Origin: Spirochaetaceae bacterium
GTDB taxonomy: Bacteria > Spirochaetota > Spirochaetia > SZUA-6 > RPPD01
Reading direction: 5' to 3'
Length of the DNA stretch: 14,078 bases
Assembly: GCA_003818675.1 (NCBI GenBank)
Contig: RPPD01000009.1
Coordinates: forward strand, 1 to 14,078
Both the position numbers and the translations under genes were made by a program. The notes beneath the pieces were generated by a model that saw only the letters and a list, made by a program, of their open reading frames with translations, did no database searches and was not told the DNA's origin. Of this stretch, positions 1,570-13,021 are shown piece after piece; position 1 is the first letter of the stretch, and every line of letters begins with the position of its first letter.

Positions 1570-2688
1570 ATGCCCGGCTCACACAACCCCTCCTCCCCTG
1601 ATCAGATGGAATCCATCAATTTTATTATTATCCCCAAACACCTGCTTTCTTCCCTATCGCCTGAAATAGATCCTGATATTCCAATCCCATGTGAAAAAAA
1701 ATTGGAAAACAGGCCTTTTTCACCAGCAGACCTGAGCATGGAAGCTATAATAGCGGGCATGATACGTGTGCTCATTTACCAGCCAGATCACAAGCATTCG
1801 GATTATTACGCCAAACTCGTCAAGAGCCTGCGCCCAGGAATAAAGGATGAATTTACAACTGCAGGTATTACAAAGGCGAAACTCGGAGATTTTCCTGTGG
1901 CCATTGAAGTATTCCAGGGTCTCAGGAGATTATTCCCGGATTGCCCCAATACAGCCTTAAACCTGGCCCTTGTTCTTGAGTCATCCGCCAGAGAAAGCAA
2001 AAATGACCAGGAAAAGACAGATAAATTTCTGGAAATGGCCCATAAAGCATATCGTGATGCTTTTGAATTAGACCAGGAAATGCCAGAAATTCTCCTCAAC
2101 TTCGGTTATTTTCTTCTGGAACAGCAGAATTATGAAAAAGCGGCCCAGCTTCTAACCTCCTTCCTTGAGCATGAAAAGGATGAAAAAAAGCATGCTTCAG
2201 TCAAAAAAATGCTGGATTCCCTCAAAGATTCGCTGAAATTGGACACTCTTTTCAAGGAATCTTATGACAATATCATGATGGGAAAGGAACAGGAGGGAAT
2301 TGACAAAATTCGCACTGTACTGGCCAAAAATCCTGATTTCTGGAATGGCTGGTTTCTCCTTGGATGGGGAAACAGGCGGCTTGGCCTGTATCCAGAGGCA
2401 AAGGAAGCCTTTTTGAAAGCCCTGGACTTTGAGGATTCAAACCCGGATCTTCTAAATGAACTGGCTATATCATGCATGGAACTTGGTGATTTCGAAGAAA
2501 GCATTGATTACCTCGGACGAGCTTTAAAAGTGGAACCAGGCAACACCAAGGTGATGTGCAATCTTGGCATTGTCAGGCTTAAAATGAACGAAACCGACGA
2601 GGCAATCCACATTTTCAAGGCAGTTTTGGACTTTTCTCCAGATGACCCGATTGCAAAAAAATATCTCGAAATACTTGAAAAAAAATAA
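1570..2688 (+). CDS. Tetratricopeptide-repeat protein
   Basis: A protein of 372 residues from the ATG at 1570. I prefer this over the ATG at 1552, which overlaps the PilZ gene, because GAAGGGA (1554-1560) lies 9 nt ahead of it. The first 90 residues have no clear motif. From about residue 95 on, the sequence is helical, with TPR-like 34-residue units. The clearest are three in the last 120 residues: WFLLGWGNRRLGLYPEAKEAF, then LLNELAISCMELGDFEESIDY, then VMCNLGIVRLKMNETDEAIHI. Each shows the alternating small and aromatic residues of TPR helices A and B. TPR arrays act as scaffolds for protein-protein contacts. There is no signal peptide, so it is probably cytoplasmic. Sitting between a PilZ receptor and the flagellins, it could be the partner that PilZ acts on, but that is a guess. 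The flaB1 sigma28-type promoter begins 11 bp after its stop codon. Confidence 0.85.
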   Translation: MPGSHNPSSPDQMESINFIIIPKHLLSSLSPEIDPDIPIPCEKKLENRPFSPADLSMEAIIAGMIRVLIYQPDHKHSDYYAKLVKSLRPGIKDEFTTAGITKAKLGDFPVAIEVFQGLRRLFPDCPNTALNLALVLESSARESKNDQEKTDKFLEMAHKAYRDAFELDQEMPEILLNFGYFLLEQQNYEKAAQLLTSFLEHEKDEKKHASVKKMLDSLKDSLKLDTLFKESYDNIMMGKEQEGIDKIRTVLAKNPDFWNGWFLLGWGNRRLGLYPEAKEAFLKALDFEDSNPDLLNELAISCMELGDFEESIDYLGRALKVEPGNTKVMCNLGIVRLKMNETDEAIHIFKAVLDFSPDDPIAKKYLEILEKK

Positions 2689-2698
2689 TAAAAAACAT

Positions 2699-2726
2699 TA
2701 AAGTATAAAGTAGCTGGTGCCGAAAG
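2699..2726 (+). promoter_or_regulatory. Sigma28 (FliA/WhiG-type) flagellar promoter for flaB1
   Basis: TAAAGTAT (2699-2706), then 12 bp, then GCCGAAAG (2719-2726). The sigma28 consensus is TAAAGTTT-N11-GCCGATAA, so both boxes are close matches and the spacing is one base longer. It is the only such match I found in the window and lies ahead of the first flagellin gene. Initiation near 2733 would give a leader of about 225 nt. Confidence 0.75.
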
Positions 2727-2790
2727 ATTGAATAAGGCTAAGTCTTCTTCACCGCGGGGGAAGGATTTGGTCTTGTCCCTTGTCTTTTAA

Positions 2791-2957
2791 TTCGGTATCC
2801 GAACTTGAGAGATTTAGGACTATTTAATTAAAAATGTTGCTGCCAACTGGCAGACCCGTATGGATTGTACGGGAACACTGTTCTCCTGGAGAACAGAAAC
2901 TTTTGGGCAAGGATGCCCGGGGCAAGGATGCCCTGAAACAGTTTCAAGGAGGAAACT
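2791..2957 (+). promoter_or_regulatory. flaB1 mRNA leader: tandem hairpins with GGA loops (putative CsrA target) and SD in a loop
   Basis: Consecutive perfect stem-loops read directly from the sequence: 2791-2803 (TTCGG/CCGAA, loop TAT); 2840-2853 (CTGCC/GGCAG, loop AACT); 2855-2873 (CCCGTA/TACGGG, loop TGGATTG); 2878-2896 (CTGTTCTC/GAGAACAG, loop CTG); 2905-2918 (GGGCA/TGCCC, loop AGGA); 2920-2933 (GGGCA/TGCCC, loop AGGA); 2940-2957 (AGTTTC/GAAACT, loop AAGGAG). The last loop is the Shine-Dalgarno sequence of flaB1, just before the ATG at 2958. CsrA/RsmA dimers bind GGA in hairpin loops, with a preferred ARGGAUG context, and repress translation by covering the ribosome site. Four loops here carry GGA. 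In Bacillus, CsrA with FliW controls flagellin (hag) this way. The CsrA assignment is inference; neither csrA nor fliW is in the window. Confidence 0.7.
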
Positions 2958-3818
2958 ATGATAATCAATCACAACCTGAGCGCGATCTTCGCGAACAACA
3001 GACTCAAGCAGAATGTTCTCATGACCGACAAGGCGCAGGAAAAACTCGCCTCTGGTTTGAGGATCTTCCGTGCTGGTGACGATGCTTCGGGACTTGCAGT
3101 TTCTGAAAAGCTTCGCTCACAGATCAGGGGTTTGAACCAGGCTGAGAAGAATGCCGAGAACGGCATTTCTTTCGTCCAGGTCGCAGAAGGCTATCTACAG
3201 GAATCACAGGACGTTCTGCAGAGAATCCGTGAACTCGCAGTCCAGGCTTCCAACGGAATCTATTCCGATGAAGACCGGATGCAGATCCAGGTAGAAATTT
3301 CCCAGCTCATCGACGAAGTGGACCGCGTTGCGTCTCATGCGCAGTTTAACGGCATGAGCATGCTCACAGGCCGCTTTGCGAAGCAGACCGGCGAAAACGT
3401 CGTCACATCTTCCATGTGGTTCCACATCGGCGCCAACATGGACCAGCGCATGCAGGTATACATCGGCACGATGTCGGCCTACGCCCTCAAGGTAAAAGAG
3501 ATGGGCTCTGATGAGATCCTCTCTCTCGAAACCCCGGACGGCGCGAACAAGTCAATCGGCGTTGTTGACGAGGCTCTTACAAAGGTTTCCAAGCAGCGCG
3601 CAGACCTCGGTGCCTACCAGAACCGCCTTGAGCATGCAGCACGTGGACTTGCAGTCGGTTCTGAAAACATGCAGGCTTCAGAGTCACGCATCCGCGATGC
3701 AAACATGGCAAGTGAAATGGTCGAATTCACAAAGAATGCTATTCTTGTGCAGTCGGCTACAGCCATGCTGGCTCAGGCCAACACACGGACCCAGACAGTC
3801 CTCCAGCTTCTTGGTTAA
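2958..3818 (+). CDS. flaB: Flagellin FlaB, first copy (filament core protein)
   Basis: A flagellin of 286 residues, the size of spirochaetal FlaB core proteins: D0/D1 ends only, with no variable D2/D3 domain. The N-terminal half has [16 protein letters not shown], a [22 protein letters not shown] segment and [15 protein letters not shown]. The C-terminal half has [16 protein letters not shown] and ends [18 protein letters not shown], the coiled D0 helix that packs in the filament core. There is no signal peptide; FlaB is exported by the flagellar type III system to the periplasmic filament. IFRAGDD is unusual, since flagellins mostly read IN-x-A-x-DD at this point and the second copy keeps IN. 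The start is fixed by AAGGAGG (2946-2952). It is expressed from the sigma28-type promoter at 2699-2726 through the hairpin leader. It has long near-identical stretches with the next gene. Confidence 0.95.
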
Positions 3819-3885
3819 TTAGGAGTACTTGACGGGTATTAACCGTTCGGATCTTTGAAAAACAAACCCTTCTTGGGTGGTGCCT

Positions 3886-3931
3886 AGGCAAGAGAGGTTC
3901 CCCGCCCCGCGGCGGGGATACCTCTTTGCCT
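3886..3931 (+). terminator. Long GC-rich hairpin between flaB1 and flaB2 (partial terminator or 3' stabiliser)
   Basis: A 20-bp stem with two single-base bulges (G3892, T3919) and loop CCGC (3907-3910). AGGCAAGAGAGGT plus TCCCCGCC on the left pairs with GGCGGGGA plus ACCTCTTTGCCT on the right. Only three T follow, so it is a poor intrinsic terminator. It more likely allows partial read-through or protects the 3' end of the flaB1 message. A second hairpin follows at 3955-3985 (GCGGAAAG/CTTTCCGC, 15-nt loop). Confidence 0.55.
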
Positions 3932-4013
3932 TTACAGAGTAAATGGGAACGGAAGCGGAAAGACCGCGCGATAAAGGCTTTCCGCGCCACTTTGTACAGG
4001 TGACCACAAACAA

Positions 4014-4063
4014 GGCAATGGATGCCGAAGGCAGCTTCAGGCTGCCTATATTAACAAGGAGGG
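4014..4063 (+). promoter_or_regulatory. flaB2 leader: GGA-loop hairpin, second hairpin and strong SD
   Basis: GGCA-ATGGA-TGCC (4014-4026) places GGA in a loop with the ATGGATG context favoured by CsrA. Directly after it comes AGGCAGC-TTCAG-GCTGCCT (4029-4047), a 7-bp stem. The ribosome site AAGGAGGG (4056-4063) sits 4 nt before the ATG. Unlike in flaB1, the SD is not in a hairpin. I see no clear sigma28-type promoter in 3819-4067, so flaB2 is either read through from flaB1 or has a promoter I cannot recognise. Confidence 0.5.
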
Positions 4064-4067
4064 TTTT

Positions 4068-4931
4068 ATGATAATAAACCACAACATCAGTGCGATGTAT
4101 GCCAATCGGCTTCTCAGATTTAAGGGAAAAGATGTCACTTCGGACATAGAGAAGCTTTCATCCGGCATGCGGATCAACAAAGCAGGCGACGATGCGTCAG
4201 GACTCGCAGTTTCTGAAAAGCTCCGCTCGCAGGTCCGCGGCCTAGTCCAGGCGGGAAAGAATATCGAAAATGCAATTTCGTTTATTCAGACCTCCGAGGG
4301 ATACCTGCAGGAAACTCAGGATATCCTCCATAGGATGAGGGAACTTGCAGTGCAGTCAGCAAACGGGATCTATTCCGATGAAGACCGCATGCAGATCCAG
4401 GTTGAAGTTTCACAGCTTGTCGACGAAGTTAACAGAATCGCCGAACACGCAGAATTCAATGGCATGAAGCTCCTTACCGGCCGGTTCGCCCGCTCCACGG
4501 GTGAAAACACCGTAACCGGTTCAATGTGGTTCCAGGTGGGTGCGAATGTCGATCAGCGCGAACAGGCGTTTATCGGCACGATGACCGCACAGGCACTTGG
4601 ACTCCAGGGAGCCCAGGGATCAGATGAACAGATCTCCATTCAGAATCCGGATGAAGCCAACAAGACAATCGCCACAGTTGACTCTGCGCTGACCGTTATT
4701 TCCAAGCAGAGAGCCGATCTCGGTGCATACCAGAACCGTTTTGAGCACGCCGCAAGGGGCGTGGCGGTTGCTGCTGAAAACATGCAGGCTGCCGAGTCAC
4801 TGATCCGTGACACAGACATGGCCGAACAGATGACAAGTTTCGTGAAGAACCAGATTCTTGTACAGTCTGGCACAGCGATGCTTGCCCAGGCCAATCTGAA
4901 GAACCAGGCAGTACTCCAGCTGCTAGGTTAA
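4068..4931 (+). CDS. flaB: Flagellin FlaB, second copy (filament core protein)
   Basis: A flagellin of 287 residues, collinear with the first copy and also without D2/D3. It begins [20 protein letters not shown], keeps the standard [18 protein letters not shown], carries the [15 protein letters not shown] tract, and ends [18 protein letters not shown]. Several FlaB isoforms commonly co-assemble in the spirochaetal periplasmic filament core, and differing dosage along the filament tunes its shape; the two copies here fit that. The start is well supported by AAGGAGGG. Its leader shares one GGA-loop hairpin with the flaB1 type of leader but is otherwise different, so the two copies are probably regulated differently. 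It is 249 bp from flaB1 and 133 bp from flaG. Confidence 0.95.
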
Positions 4932-11265: not shown

Positions 11266-11337
11266 AGCGCCTGATCGGAATCGAACCGACATCTTTAGCT
11301 TGGAAGGCTAAGGTAATAACCACTATACGACAGGCGC
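11266..11337 (-). tRNA. tRNA-Gly (anticodon UCC)
   Basis: A 72-nt cloverleaf on the minus strand. The acceptor arm is GCGCCTG (11337-11331) with CAGGCGC (11273-11267), then discriminator T (minus strand). The D arm has GTATAGTGGTTATTAC, the anticodon arm is TTAGC-CTTCCAA-GCTAA with anticodon TCC, and the T arm is TCGG-TTCGATT-CCGA. It closely resembles bacterial tRNA-Gly(UCC). CCA is not encoded: TAAT follows the discriminator. It decodes GGA and GGG. The integrase gene lies beyond its 5' end, which is not the usual side for a tRNA-targeting element. Confidence 0.95.
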
Positions 11338-11400
11338 ATTTTCTTTTCCAGTATCAAGTTACGCTTTTCAGGTTTCCGTCTGAAACCCTCACTCGCAACA

Positions 11401-11429
11401 AATATACAACAATCGTTGACTATTTGCAA
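11401..11429 (-). promoter_or_regulatory. Promoter for tRNA-Gly, overlapping the integrase promoter
   Basis: On the minus strand TTGCAA (11429-11424) and TATATT (11406-11401) are 17 bp apart. Transcription would start near 11394, about 57 nt ahead of the mature tRNA. The -35 region overlaps the plus-strand integrase promoter at 11416-11444, so the host tRNA and the element's integrase may compete for polymerase. Confidence 0.5.
11415..11425 (+). repeat. 11-bp direct repeat GTTGACTATTT, copy 1 (ahead of integrase)
   Basis: GTTGACTATTT occurs here and again, identical, at 12562-12572 just after the integrase. Each copy contains the -35 box of a promoter. It could be an operator or an integrase arm-type site shared by the two promoters, or a chance similarity driven by the -35 hexamer. 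Confidence 0.5.
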
Positions 11430-11444
11430 TACTTTATATAAACT
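11416..11444 (+). promoter_or_regulatory. Integrase promoter, apparently leaderless
   Basis: TTGACT (11416-11421) is followed by an A/T-rich -10 region, either TATAAA (11437-11442, 15-bp spacer) or TAAACT (11439-11444, 17-bp spacer). The start point would be about 11449-11451, i.e. at the integrase ATG (11451). No Shine-Dalgarno sequence precedes that ATG, in agreement with a leaderless message. Confidence 0.5.
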
Positions 11445-11450
11445 TTTTAT

Positions 11451-12566
11451 ATGAGAAATGAATATATCCTGTTCAAAAGGAAGGGTCAAGCGGTTTGGTA
11501 CTTCTATTATTATCAGGGCAACAAGCGAGTAAATAAGAGCACCGGGAAGACCACAAAGGCCGAGGCTACAAAATACGCTAAGGACTTCACGGCCGACCGC
11601 AGGGCGAAAACACAACAGACTTTTGGAGAGTTTACCAAAGATTTTTTCATATGGGGTTCATGCCGATGGATTAAAAACCAGCTTGCTTTCAAGCGCAGAA
11701 TATCGGAGCGGTGGGCGGGCATAAAGCGGAAATATCTTGAAAACCACATCCTGCCCGTTTTCGGTGATCGTATCCTCGGGGAGATCACGAAGGCGGACAT
11801 CAGGGATTTTATTGTTGACCTTCCGGGAAGTGGGCAACACAAAAACCATGTACTTTATACGCTGAAGCAGATATTACAGGAAGCAGAAGACCGGGAGATC
11901 ATCGAGGTATCAAAAGCCACAAGCATGAAGGGTTTTACAATTGACACGCTGGTACAGGAAAAAGCTCGGGGTGTGTTTACCGACGATGAAAGCTCCCTAC
12001 TCTTCCCCGCCGATAAAAAACAAATGCTTGAGATCTGGAACGATGAGAAACACGCCGCCCTCTTCCTGATTCTTGAAAGTACAGGAATTCGGCTGGGCGA
12101 GGCCAGGGCGCTATTTTGGGAAGACTTCGACGGGGAAAGCCTTTATATCCATCGGGCCGTCAAGGATGAGCACGGGACAGTCGGCACCACAAAAACAGGT
12201 GTTGAGCGTTATGTGTTCCCTTCCCCGCTTGCCCTGGAGTACATGACAAGCACCACTTTTATTGCAGATAACGGCTTGATGTTCCCAGGCGAGGACGGGA
12301 CAAAGCCCTACACACAGCGCGGCCTCTTTCATTCATTCTTGCAAGCACTGAAGCGCACGGAAATAATAAAAGGCAACAGGTCCATACATTCATTCCGTCA
12401 CGGCTATAACACGCGCTTAATAAACGCGGGTATTGATCCTGATTCAATACGGCTACTCATGGGGCATAAAACCGCACGGATGACGGCCAACTACGACAAG
12501 CCTTCACAACAAGAACTTAAAACCAGAATGAAAAAGGCTTTAAAAATATTAGGCAAAGATAGTTGA
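11451..12566 (+). CDS. int: Tyrosine recombinase/integrase
   Basis: A protein of 371 residues with the full catalytic set of the tyrosine recombinase family: Arg214 in STGIRLGEA, Lys248 in TTKTG, His313 and Arg316 in IHSFRHGYN, His339 in LLMGHKTARM, and the nucleophile Tyr348 in ANYDK. The N-terminus (about 1-50, WYFYYYQGNKRVNKSTGKT) resembles the arm-binding domain of phage integrases, and about 55-150 is the core-binding domain. It cuts and rejoins att sites to integrate or excise the element. The ATG at 11451 has no ribosome site, and the promoter places the RNA 5' end at or next to it. The stop codon (12564-12566) is inside the -35 box of the next promoter. It lies 113 bp from the 5' end of tRNA-Gly and points away from it. 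Confidence 0.93.
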   Translation: MRNEYILFKRKGQAVWYFYYYQGNKRVNKSTGKTTKAEATKYAKDFTADRRAKTQQTFGEFTKDFFIWGSCRWIKNQLAFKRRISERWAGIKRKYLENHILPVFGDRILGEITKADIRDFIVDLPGSGQHKNHVLYTLKQILQEAEDREIIEVSKATSMKGFTIDTLVQEKARGVFTDDESSLLFPADKKQMLEIWNDEKHAALFLILESTGIRLGEARALFWEDFDGESLYIHRAVKDEHGTVGTTKTGVERYVFPSPLALEYMTSTTFIADNGLMFPGEDGTKPYTQRGLFHSFLQALKRTEIIKGNRSIHSFRHGYNTRLINAGIDPDSIRLLMGHKTARMTANYDKPSQQELKTRMKKALKILGKDS

Positions 12567-12572
12567 CTATTT
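12562..12572 (+). repeat. 11-bp direct repeat GTTGACTATTT, copy 2 (after integrase)
   Basis: Identical to the copy at 11415-11425. It overlaps the integrase stop codon and supplies the -35 box of the promoter for the RNA/excisionase transcript. Confidence 0.5.
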
Positions 12573-12590
12573 TTAACATTGCGCTATATT
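12563..12590 (+). promoter_or_regulatory. Promoter for the structured RNA and excisionase operon
   Basis: TTGACT (12563-12568), a 16-bp spacer, and TATATT (12585-12590). Start would fall near 12597. The -35 box overlaps the integrase stop codon, so there is no gap between integrase and this transcription unit. Confidence 0.6.
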
Positions 12591-12596
12591 ATTAAT

Positions 12597-12760
12597 CATC
12601 GTGGAACTATAGCTTGTAAAAACCAGGCGACGGCGAACCGGAGAGACAGCCGGAAACCCCGCCAGGATGAGGAGAGAAGCACCCCAGAAGGTCCACGCGG
12701 ACAGGATCACTTTTCTGTGACAACCCCGATAAGTTAAATCTAACTTATGGGGGTTTTTTT
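12597..12760 (+). ncRNA. Structured RNA or regulatory leader between int and xis (unrecognised class)
   Basis: About 164 nt between a promoter and a strong terminator, with no open reading frame of note. Pairings I can read: a long-range closing helix CGTGGA (12600-12605) with TCCACG (12692-12697); GGCG (12626-12629 or 12632-12635) with CGCC (12660-12663), enclosing CCGG-AGAGACAG-CCGG (12638-12653); ATCAC/GTGA-type hairpin TCAC-TTTTCT-GTGA (12707-12720); and the terminator. GTCC-ACGC-GGAC (12691-12702) competes with the closing helix. AAACCCC (12654-12660) can pair with GGGGTTT (12750-12756) in the terminator, a possible alternative fold. It could be a free small RNA, or a riboswitch-like leader that decides whether polymerase enters the excisionase gene. 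It does not match any RNA family I can recall, but I could not run a covariance search. Confidence 0.5.
12722..12760 (+). terminator. Strong intrinsic terminator abutting the xis start codon
   Basis: AACCCC (12722-12727) with GGGGTT (12750-12755), one G-G mismatch, then ATAAGTTA (12729-12736) with TAACTTAT (12741-12748), loop AATC, followed by seven T (12754-12760). The next three bases are the ATG of the excisionase-like gene, so read-through is needed for its expression from the promoter at 12563. The five G of the 3' arm are the only SD-like bases before that ATG. Confidence 0.8.
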
Positions 12761-13021
12761 ATGCCTACCAAGACGATCCAAAGAGAAAACGAAAAAAAAG
12801 ACATCATTTTCGATCGGGAACAGTTCATCAATACCAGGGAACTGGCCGAGCTTCTGCACAAACCTATTGCTACAATTCATCAATGGACTTTCAAGGGACT
12901 GATCCCTTTCTACAAAATCGGACGTGATTCCCTCTACAAAAAAACAGACATTGTGAAATGGATCGAATCCAAGTTTCACAAAGTAACTGAAGAGGCCGGG
13001 GCCGCAAGGAAGGGGGCATAG
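12761..13021 (+). CDS. Excisionase-like HTH protein (MerR/AlpA-type helix-turn-helix)
   Basis: A protein of 86 residues. Residues 22-70 form a winged helix of the excisionase (HTH_17) type: FINTRELAELLHKPIATIHQ as the first helices, WTFKGLIPFYKIGRDSLYKK as recognition helix and wing, then DIVKWIESK. The first 20 residues are charged and the last 15 are a Lys/Ala tail. Such proteins bind direct repeats in att sites and direct integrase toward excision, or act as transcription regulators of the element. The ATG follows directly after the terminator T-run, with only GGGGG (12749-12753) as a possible ribosome site 7 nt ahead; no alternative ATG precedes the HTH. Its expression is therefore tied to the upstream RNA. 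The next gene starts 2 bp after its stop. Confidence 0.85.
   Translation: MPTKTIQRENEKKDIIFDREQFINTRELAELLHKPIATIHQWTFKGLIPFYKIGRDSLYKKTDIVKWIESKFHKVTEEAGAARKGA

Follow-up and report, generated by a model that had tools for sequence, protein, structure and literature searches.

A hairpin array in a spirochaetal flaB1 leader, best read as the local enlargement of a conserved two-site element and a likely CsrA target

Is the row of short hairpins in front of the flagellin gene flaB1 of a Spirochaetaceae bacterium a target of CsrA, a sponge for it, or both? The window analyzed here, a stretch of 14,078 nucleotides at the start of contig RPPD01000009.1, carries flaB1 in tandem with a second flagellin gene, flaB2. 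A sequence-only reading had described six perfect stem-loops in under 120 nt of the flaB1 leader, compared them to a CsrB-type sponge, and proposed that the flagellin message could be repressed by CsrA and also titrate it. The features on which the argument turns are the following.

2699..2723, + strand: sigma-28-like promoter TAAAG-N15-GCCGA, weak taken alone
2734..2833, + strand: 5′ part of the leader, with long stems in the fold of 2734-2960
2840..2853, + strand: hairpin 1, without GGA (hairpin search, fold)
2855..2873, + strand: hairpin 2, loop with ATGGATT, a weaker candidate CsrA site, absent from the closest leaders (hairpin search, fold)
2878..2896, + strand: hairpin 3, with GGA at the loop edge only and no A-N-GGA (hairpin search, fold)
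2905..2918, + strand: hairpin 4, GGGCA-AGGA-TGCCC, upstream copy of candidate CsrA site BS1 (CAAGGATG at 2908)
2920..2933, + strand: hairpin 5, GGGCA-AGGA-TGCCC, Shine-Dalgarno (SD)-proximal copy of candidate site BS1, at the conserved position (covered by the match of covariance model R1, see below)
2940..2957, + strand: hairpin 6, SD sequence AAGGAGG in the loop, candidate CsrA site BS2 (CAAGGAGG at 2945)
2958..3818, + strand: flaB1 flagellin, 286 aa (Flagellin_N and Flagellin_C domains)
4014..4026, + strand: single ANGGA hairpin GGCA-ATGGA-TGCC in the flaB2 leader (weak R1 match at 4009-4070, 14.9 bits, E 0.024)
4068..4931, + strand: flaB2 flagellin, 287 aa (domain search)
11266-11337, - strand: tRNA gene (Rfam)

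The hairpins of the flaB1 leader are real and go beyond chance. All six lie within 2840-2957, where the sequence-only reading had placed them, and the folding it had proposed as a check bears it out: the minimum-energy fold of 2834-2960 holds every one of them (-51.2 kcal/mol, z -4.49, a stability matched by none of 200 shuffles), and the longer stretch 2699-2960 is likewise more stable than its shuffles. Pairing probabilities in the fold of 2734-2960, checked at two pairs per hairpin, ranged from 0.725 to 0.997. Six perfect hairpins with stems of at least 5 pairs were found in 2834-2957 in none of 1000 shuffles (mean 0.6, maximum 4), and five whose 4-7 nt loop contains GGA, again with perfect stems of at least 5 pairs, in none of 2000 (mean 0.06, maximum 2). 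Elsewhere in the window, the same rule picks out scattered GGA hairpins, four on the + strand and three on the - strand, together with a further one on the - strand that is the complement of hairpin 3.

Not every hairpin of the row carries the CsrA motif. The earlier description of a GGA-loop array holds for five hairpins, one of which (hairpin 3) falls outside the A-N-GGA form, and fails for hairpin 1. Similarly, the count of four GGA sites stands when a site is defined as A-N-GGA in a hairpin (2860, 2909, 2924, and 2946; a fifth A-N-GGA, at 2761, lies outside the six) and drops to three when it is defined as CANGGANG (2908, 2923, and 2945), the ATGGATT loop of 2855-2873 being the poorest match. 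Hairpins 4 and 5, previously called near-copies, proved to be letter-for-letter identical, each reading GGGCAAGGATGCCC at a 15-nt step. The last hairpin does enclose the SD in its loop, and the distance from hairpin 5 to the SD, measured from GGA to GGA, is 22 nt (2926 to 2948).

The upstream box at 2699..2723 is called sigma-28-like by comparison to the sigma-28 consensus, and the start of the flaB1 transcript is placed by inference. The pattern TAAA-N14..18-GCCGA matches once in the window versus 0.50 times by chance, with at least one match in 81 of 200 shuffles; a similar box, TAAA-N15..17-YCGA, was counted without a control in 24 of 47 flaB1 leaders from the best 80 of 573 loci. By eye, region 2699-2833 and the same part of four other flaB1 leaders (L001, L008, L015, and L117) display an inverted repeat around the GCCGAT of the promoter-like box, as well as a CCCTACTCTA-like stretch, and this 5′ part is possibly a second structured domain of these leaders. 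Also by eye, the flaB1 leaders of L006, L011, and L019 have a second, stronger SD-like AAGGAGGTGATGAT approximately 150 nt 5′ of the flaB1 start. An ORF at 2834-3079 (81 aa) spans the hairpins and runs into flaB1 in a different frame; it was set aside. A terminator or attenuator in the leader was considered and rejected: a single weak + strand site was found at 2743-2764, and the two sites in 2600-4100 compare to 1.8 in shuffles. At the gathering score, the Rfam scan of the window returned the tRNA gene alone, and within 2690-2975 Rfam gave just two chance-level matches (E 0.24 and 0.47). The tRNA gene is adjoined by a phage-type integrase-like ORF (11451-12566) and an excisionase-like small ORF (12761-13021), both named by eye; region 11266-13021 is possibly an integrated element.

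To place the leader among its homologs, the best 80 of 573 loci from a scan with the FlaB1 protein, all spirochaetes by title, were combined with the window into a set of 130 flagellin leaders, comprising 47 from flaB1 genes in tandem with flaB2 (window included), 48 from flaB2 genes, and 35 others. Within these best 80 of 573 loci, an ANGGA hairpin (at least 4 pairs, at most one mismatch) precedes the SD in all 46 other tandem flaB1 leaders. Under a stricter stem rule, it was found in 41 of the 47 versus 1.9% of shuffles, the six misses being due to a mismatch or a short stem, as well as in 29 of 48 flaB2 leaders (2.7% shuffled) and 24 of 35 other leaders (2.3%). The flaB2 leader of the window escapes the stricter rule because its four-pair stem is below the threshold. 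Motif CANGGANG lies over the SD in all 47 flaB1 leaders, window included, and occurs in the BS1 region of 37. Twelve flaB2 leaders, Treponema-type by title (L045, L046, L050, L051, L053, L056, L059, L064, L067, L075, L076, and L080), keep the hairpin with a CANGA loop instead of CANGGA, suggestive of a lost CsrA motif.

The stem of the BS1 hairpin covaries. In a gapless alignment of 46 hairpins (43 distinct), standard pairing over its six stem pairs reaches 93.4% versus 60.4% in shuffles, compensatory changes on both sides occur at all six pairs, and pairing falls to 48.8% or less once one partner is slid by 1-3 columns; the invariance of the A and GGA columns in this alignment arises partly because the leaders were chosen by A-N-GGA. 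For the SD hairpin, 67.1% of pairs are standard versus 57.4% in shuffles, but 66.3% are retained after a slide by one column, so that pairing weakly supports this hairpin in the relatives. Its covariation score of 0.216 exceeds all 500 shuffles and all slides, and some leaders seem to use another register of the SD hairpin, which falls outside the pairing count. The GGA-to-GGA distance is 21-28 nt in 42 of the 47 flaB1 leaders (median 24), a count in which the window was entered with its upstream copy (37 nt); its nearer copy, at 22 nt, retains the usual distance. By this comparison, the conserved core consists of two candidate sites, namely, an ANGGA hairpin followed by a GGA in the SD. Stems and GGA are accordingly kept in homologous leaders for two of the four sites, and the extra sites are not conserved.

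The same two-site element recurs widely in the class. Covariance model R1, which describes both hairpins and was built from 44 of the 46 leaders with the window excluded from training, matched the window at 2915-2960 (52.5 bits, E 2.9e-11). It was found in all 20 genomes of relatives at E up to 1, with a best match of 5.9e-5 or lower in each; most of these genomes had supplied training leaders. Across the class, 180 of 297 genomes contain a match at E up to 0.01. A flagellin start pattern was present in all 53 of the R1-match loci that were read (L115 and L116 are outside this count), and 17 of these belong to flagellins of 290 aa, a class absent from the training set. As for the candidate regulator, csrA is present in 221 of the 297 genomes, comprising 168 of the 180 element-positive versus 53 of the 117 element-negative ones; at the E threshold of 0.01, 12 genomes have the element without csrA and 53 have csrA without the element. 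This co-occurrence may merely reflect having flagella. In the 20 genomes of relatives, both csrA and fliW are present, with adjacent coordinates in every case, and their frames overlap in the nearest relative and its family mate.

This arrangement resembles the CsrA/FliW-controlled flagellin leaders of B. subtilis hag, B. burgdorferi flaB, and C. jejuni flaA, which combine an upstream GGA hairpin with a GGA over the SD. In the flaB1 leader, a hairpin with GGA in its loop lies 5′ of the SD, a second GGA overlaps the SD, and the csrA-fliW pair is found in the relatives. The spacing is also alike, 21 nt in C. jejuni flaA versus 22 nt here (PMC4894983). In contrast, B. subtilis hag and C. jejuni flaA are described with two sites (available parts of PMC7652899 and PMC4894983), and the present leader has four candidate A-N-GGA sites, including a tandem copy. 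Among spirochaetes, CsrA represses FlaB of Borrelia, and sites near the SD of flaB1 and flaB2 have been proposed in Treponema denticola, which shares with the present case the spirochaetal flaB genes and the position of the sites and, with the relatives of the window, a fliW-csrA pair, there in a flagellar cluster (PMC9481697). That proposal, however, appears in the discussion and, in the available part of the paper, comes without structure, covariation, or number of sites (PMC9481697).

The two-site layout, the C. jejuni-like spacing, and the csrA-fliW pair of the relatives suggest that translation of flaB1 is repressed by CsrA and that FliW lifts this repression; the leader is likely a CsrA target, as the sequence-only reading had proposed and as the compensated stem, the loop GGA, the SD GGA, and the csrA-fliW adjacency in relatives now support well. 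There is good reason to regard it as the RNA component of a flagellin switch run by CsrA and FliW, in which the anchor has been doubled and a weaker site added. By analogy with the known systems, a CsrA dimer would be anchored by the ANGGA hairpin near the start (BS1) and would then cover the GGA in the SD hairpin (BS2), keeping the ribosome off; once flagellin is exported, FliW would be freed and would remove CsrA, allowing flaB1 to be translated. The doubled anchor and the weaker upstream site should raise CsrA occupancy of the flaB1 message. CsrA binding, translational repression, release by FliW, and any consequence of the additional sites are all carried over here from those systems, and hairpins 1-3 fall outside what the switch explains. 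A function without CsrA, such as a 5′ stabilizer or a thermometer that closes the SD, would fit the position of the SD in a hairpin loop and the lack of A-N-GGA in hairpins 1 and 3, but it leaves unexplained both the constancy of the ANGGA loop against freely changing stems and the company of csrA and fliW, and is considered highly improbable.

The two extra A-N-GGA sites are not shared by the closest leaders. The two closest leaders read, L001 and L117 (254/286 and 252/286 FlaB1 identity, respectively), have one ANGGA hairpin and an SD hairpin under the strict rule. The former has a further weak four-pair TAAA-TGGA-TTTA, which the minimum-energy fold places in a stem, and, at the position of hairpin 3, a hairpin whose loop lacks GGA; L119 (197/286 identity) has one extra GGA hairpin of its own. 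With the strict rule, more than three GGA hairpins are counted in only one of the 47 flaB1 leaders (best 80 of 573 loci), that of the window, and in none of a set of 89 leaders. This uniqueness rests on the counting rule, since a looser one (GU pairs, longer stems) gives the window three ANGGA hairpins, the two tandem hairpins being merged, and gives three to one other leader of the 47. Across the class, the tandem BS1 pattern occurs in 2 of 297 genomes, neither followed by a flagellin start in the stretch read, and a looser three-site pattern gives 73 matches in 34 of 297 genomes, with the reversed control giving 10 in 6; several of the 73 look like coding repeats. On these comparisons, the array is best understood as a conserved two-site element that has been enlarged locally.

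Whether the enlargement has a function bears on two further accounts, both compatible with the switch. The extra hairpins could have arisen by recent local duplication and drift and have no role of their own, leaving only hairpins 5 and 6 to matter; the identity of hairpins 4 and 5 at a 15-nt step and the single copy in relatives fit this account, but hairpin 2 carries its ANGGA loop on a different stem, so that a single duplication cannot yield all extra sites. This account is a tentative one, plausible yet somewhat doubtful. Alternatively, an abundant flaB1 message with four ANGGA hairpins might soak up CsrA and relieve other targets, acting as target and sponge. Four A-N-GGA sites, three of them CANGGANG, within less than 120 nt are in keeping with such titration, and the flaA message of C. 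jejuni titrates CsrA with two sites, so that a dual target-and-titrator flagellin message would not be new (PMC4894983). However, the extra sites are missing from the two closest leaders read, and the comparison therefore gives no sign of a four-site array kept for titration; moreover, a single CsrA dimer may be shared by neighboring hairpins at this 15-nt spacing, in which case no additional CsrA would be bound. A role as sponge is possible, though judged unlikely.

The CsrB-type likeness itself is only partial. CsrB and RsmZ sponges are stand-alone non-coding RNAs with many sites. The flaB1 leader shares with them a row of several GGA-loop hairpins but is joined to an ORF, its hairpins stopping at the flaB1 start codon, and relatives keep two sites rather than many. 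No terminator-like site was found on the + strand from the hairpins to 4100; a separate short transcript is still compatible with the data. No related paper on Treponema, CsrA, and a sponge was found in the literature searched, as judged by title.

Similar hairpins occur in other spirochaetal RNAs, which are leads rather than results on this window. The 3′ hairpin of Rfam Termite-flg (RF01729) is an ANGGA hairpin with loop AnGGAU; in contrast to the flaB1 element, Termite-flg sits in flaB2 leaders and has further 5′ structure. Of 8 loci searched in termite-type spirochaetes and their kin, 7 have it 5′ of flaB2 (L047:3538-3642, L018:9931-10036, L048, L065, L069, L074, and L079), its end lying approximately 20 nt before the start. 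Among 27 genomes, 5 match at E up to 0.1, 2 of these above the cut-off, and the nearest relative, G001, has no match. The window has no Termite-flg match at the gathering score, nor has region 2690-2975 up to E 1. Termite-flg is marked as RNA and cis-regulatory in a table of the available part of PMC2864571. GCGC[AG] at -140..-40 is present in 46 of 48 flaB2 leaders (that of the window included, by eye) versus 16 of 82 others, which suggests that the element may extend beyond the Rfam model.

Rfam TD-2 (RF03162), whose two consensus hairpins bear AuGGAu and AcGgAU in their loops, has matches in 28 of the 297 genomes, 18 of them above the cut-off; the copies per genome are a lower bound, with 13 candidates scored in each. 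Among 20 copies, one each from 20 of the 28 genomes, at least 11 have an ANGGA hairpin, at least 7 have two, and others have different loops (copy L207 was counted without its first 13 bases and is thus underestimated). The full CsrA SELEX consensus, RUACARGGAUGU (PMC7652899), occurs in 1 of the 20 copies and at four places in L199-L201. Of the TD-2 genomes, 25 of 28 have csrA versus 221 of 297 overall (p 0.07), and the same 25 have fliW. The notion of TD-2 as a general CsrA decoy appears only partly borne out by these sequences. No paper on TD-1 or TD-2 was found in the literature searched, nor any mention in the available main text of PMC2864571. ANGGA hairpin arrays outside flagellin genes were also observed in L186:929-1257 (+ strand), L187 (- strand), and L185, in addition to TD-2 copies L199-L222. 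The arrays of G020 (L185-L187) overlap matches to TD-2, of which these three loci hold 10 at E up to 0.5 and two above the cut-off, arrays L188-L193 gave none up to E 0.5, and ten non-flagellin array loci had no Rfam match at the gathering score. Intergenic-looking arrays in L145, L146, L147, L152, L160, and L162 alternate ANGGA hairpins with ANGGA hairpins inside a longer outer stem, and in G150 and G157 arrays are present, with neither csrA nor fliW found. It is a speculative and quite improbable generalization that ANGGA hairpins are a common CsrA currency of spirochaetes, with flagellin leaders acting as target and buffer, and with Termite-flg and the many-copy TD-2 of some Treponema acting as CsrA sites or decoys beside FliW.

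The joint action of FliW and sRNAs on CsrA is described as undetermined in any species in the available part of a review (PMC7652899); with csrA and fliW in 25 of 28 TD-2 genomes, some Treponema may suit this question. For flagellin control, what had been a proposal for one spirochaete becomes, through the comparison, a conserved RNA element with covariation that accompanies flagellin genes and is matched by the model in 180 of 297 genomes of the class. The flaB1 leader, in which the anchor is naturally doubled, offers a setting in which to see if additional CsrA sites make repression tighter or serve to titrate the protein.
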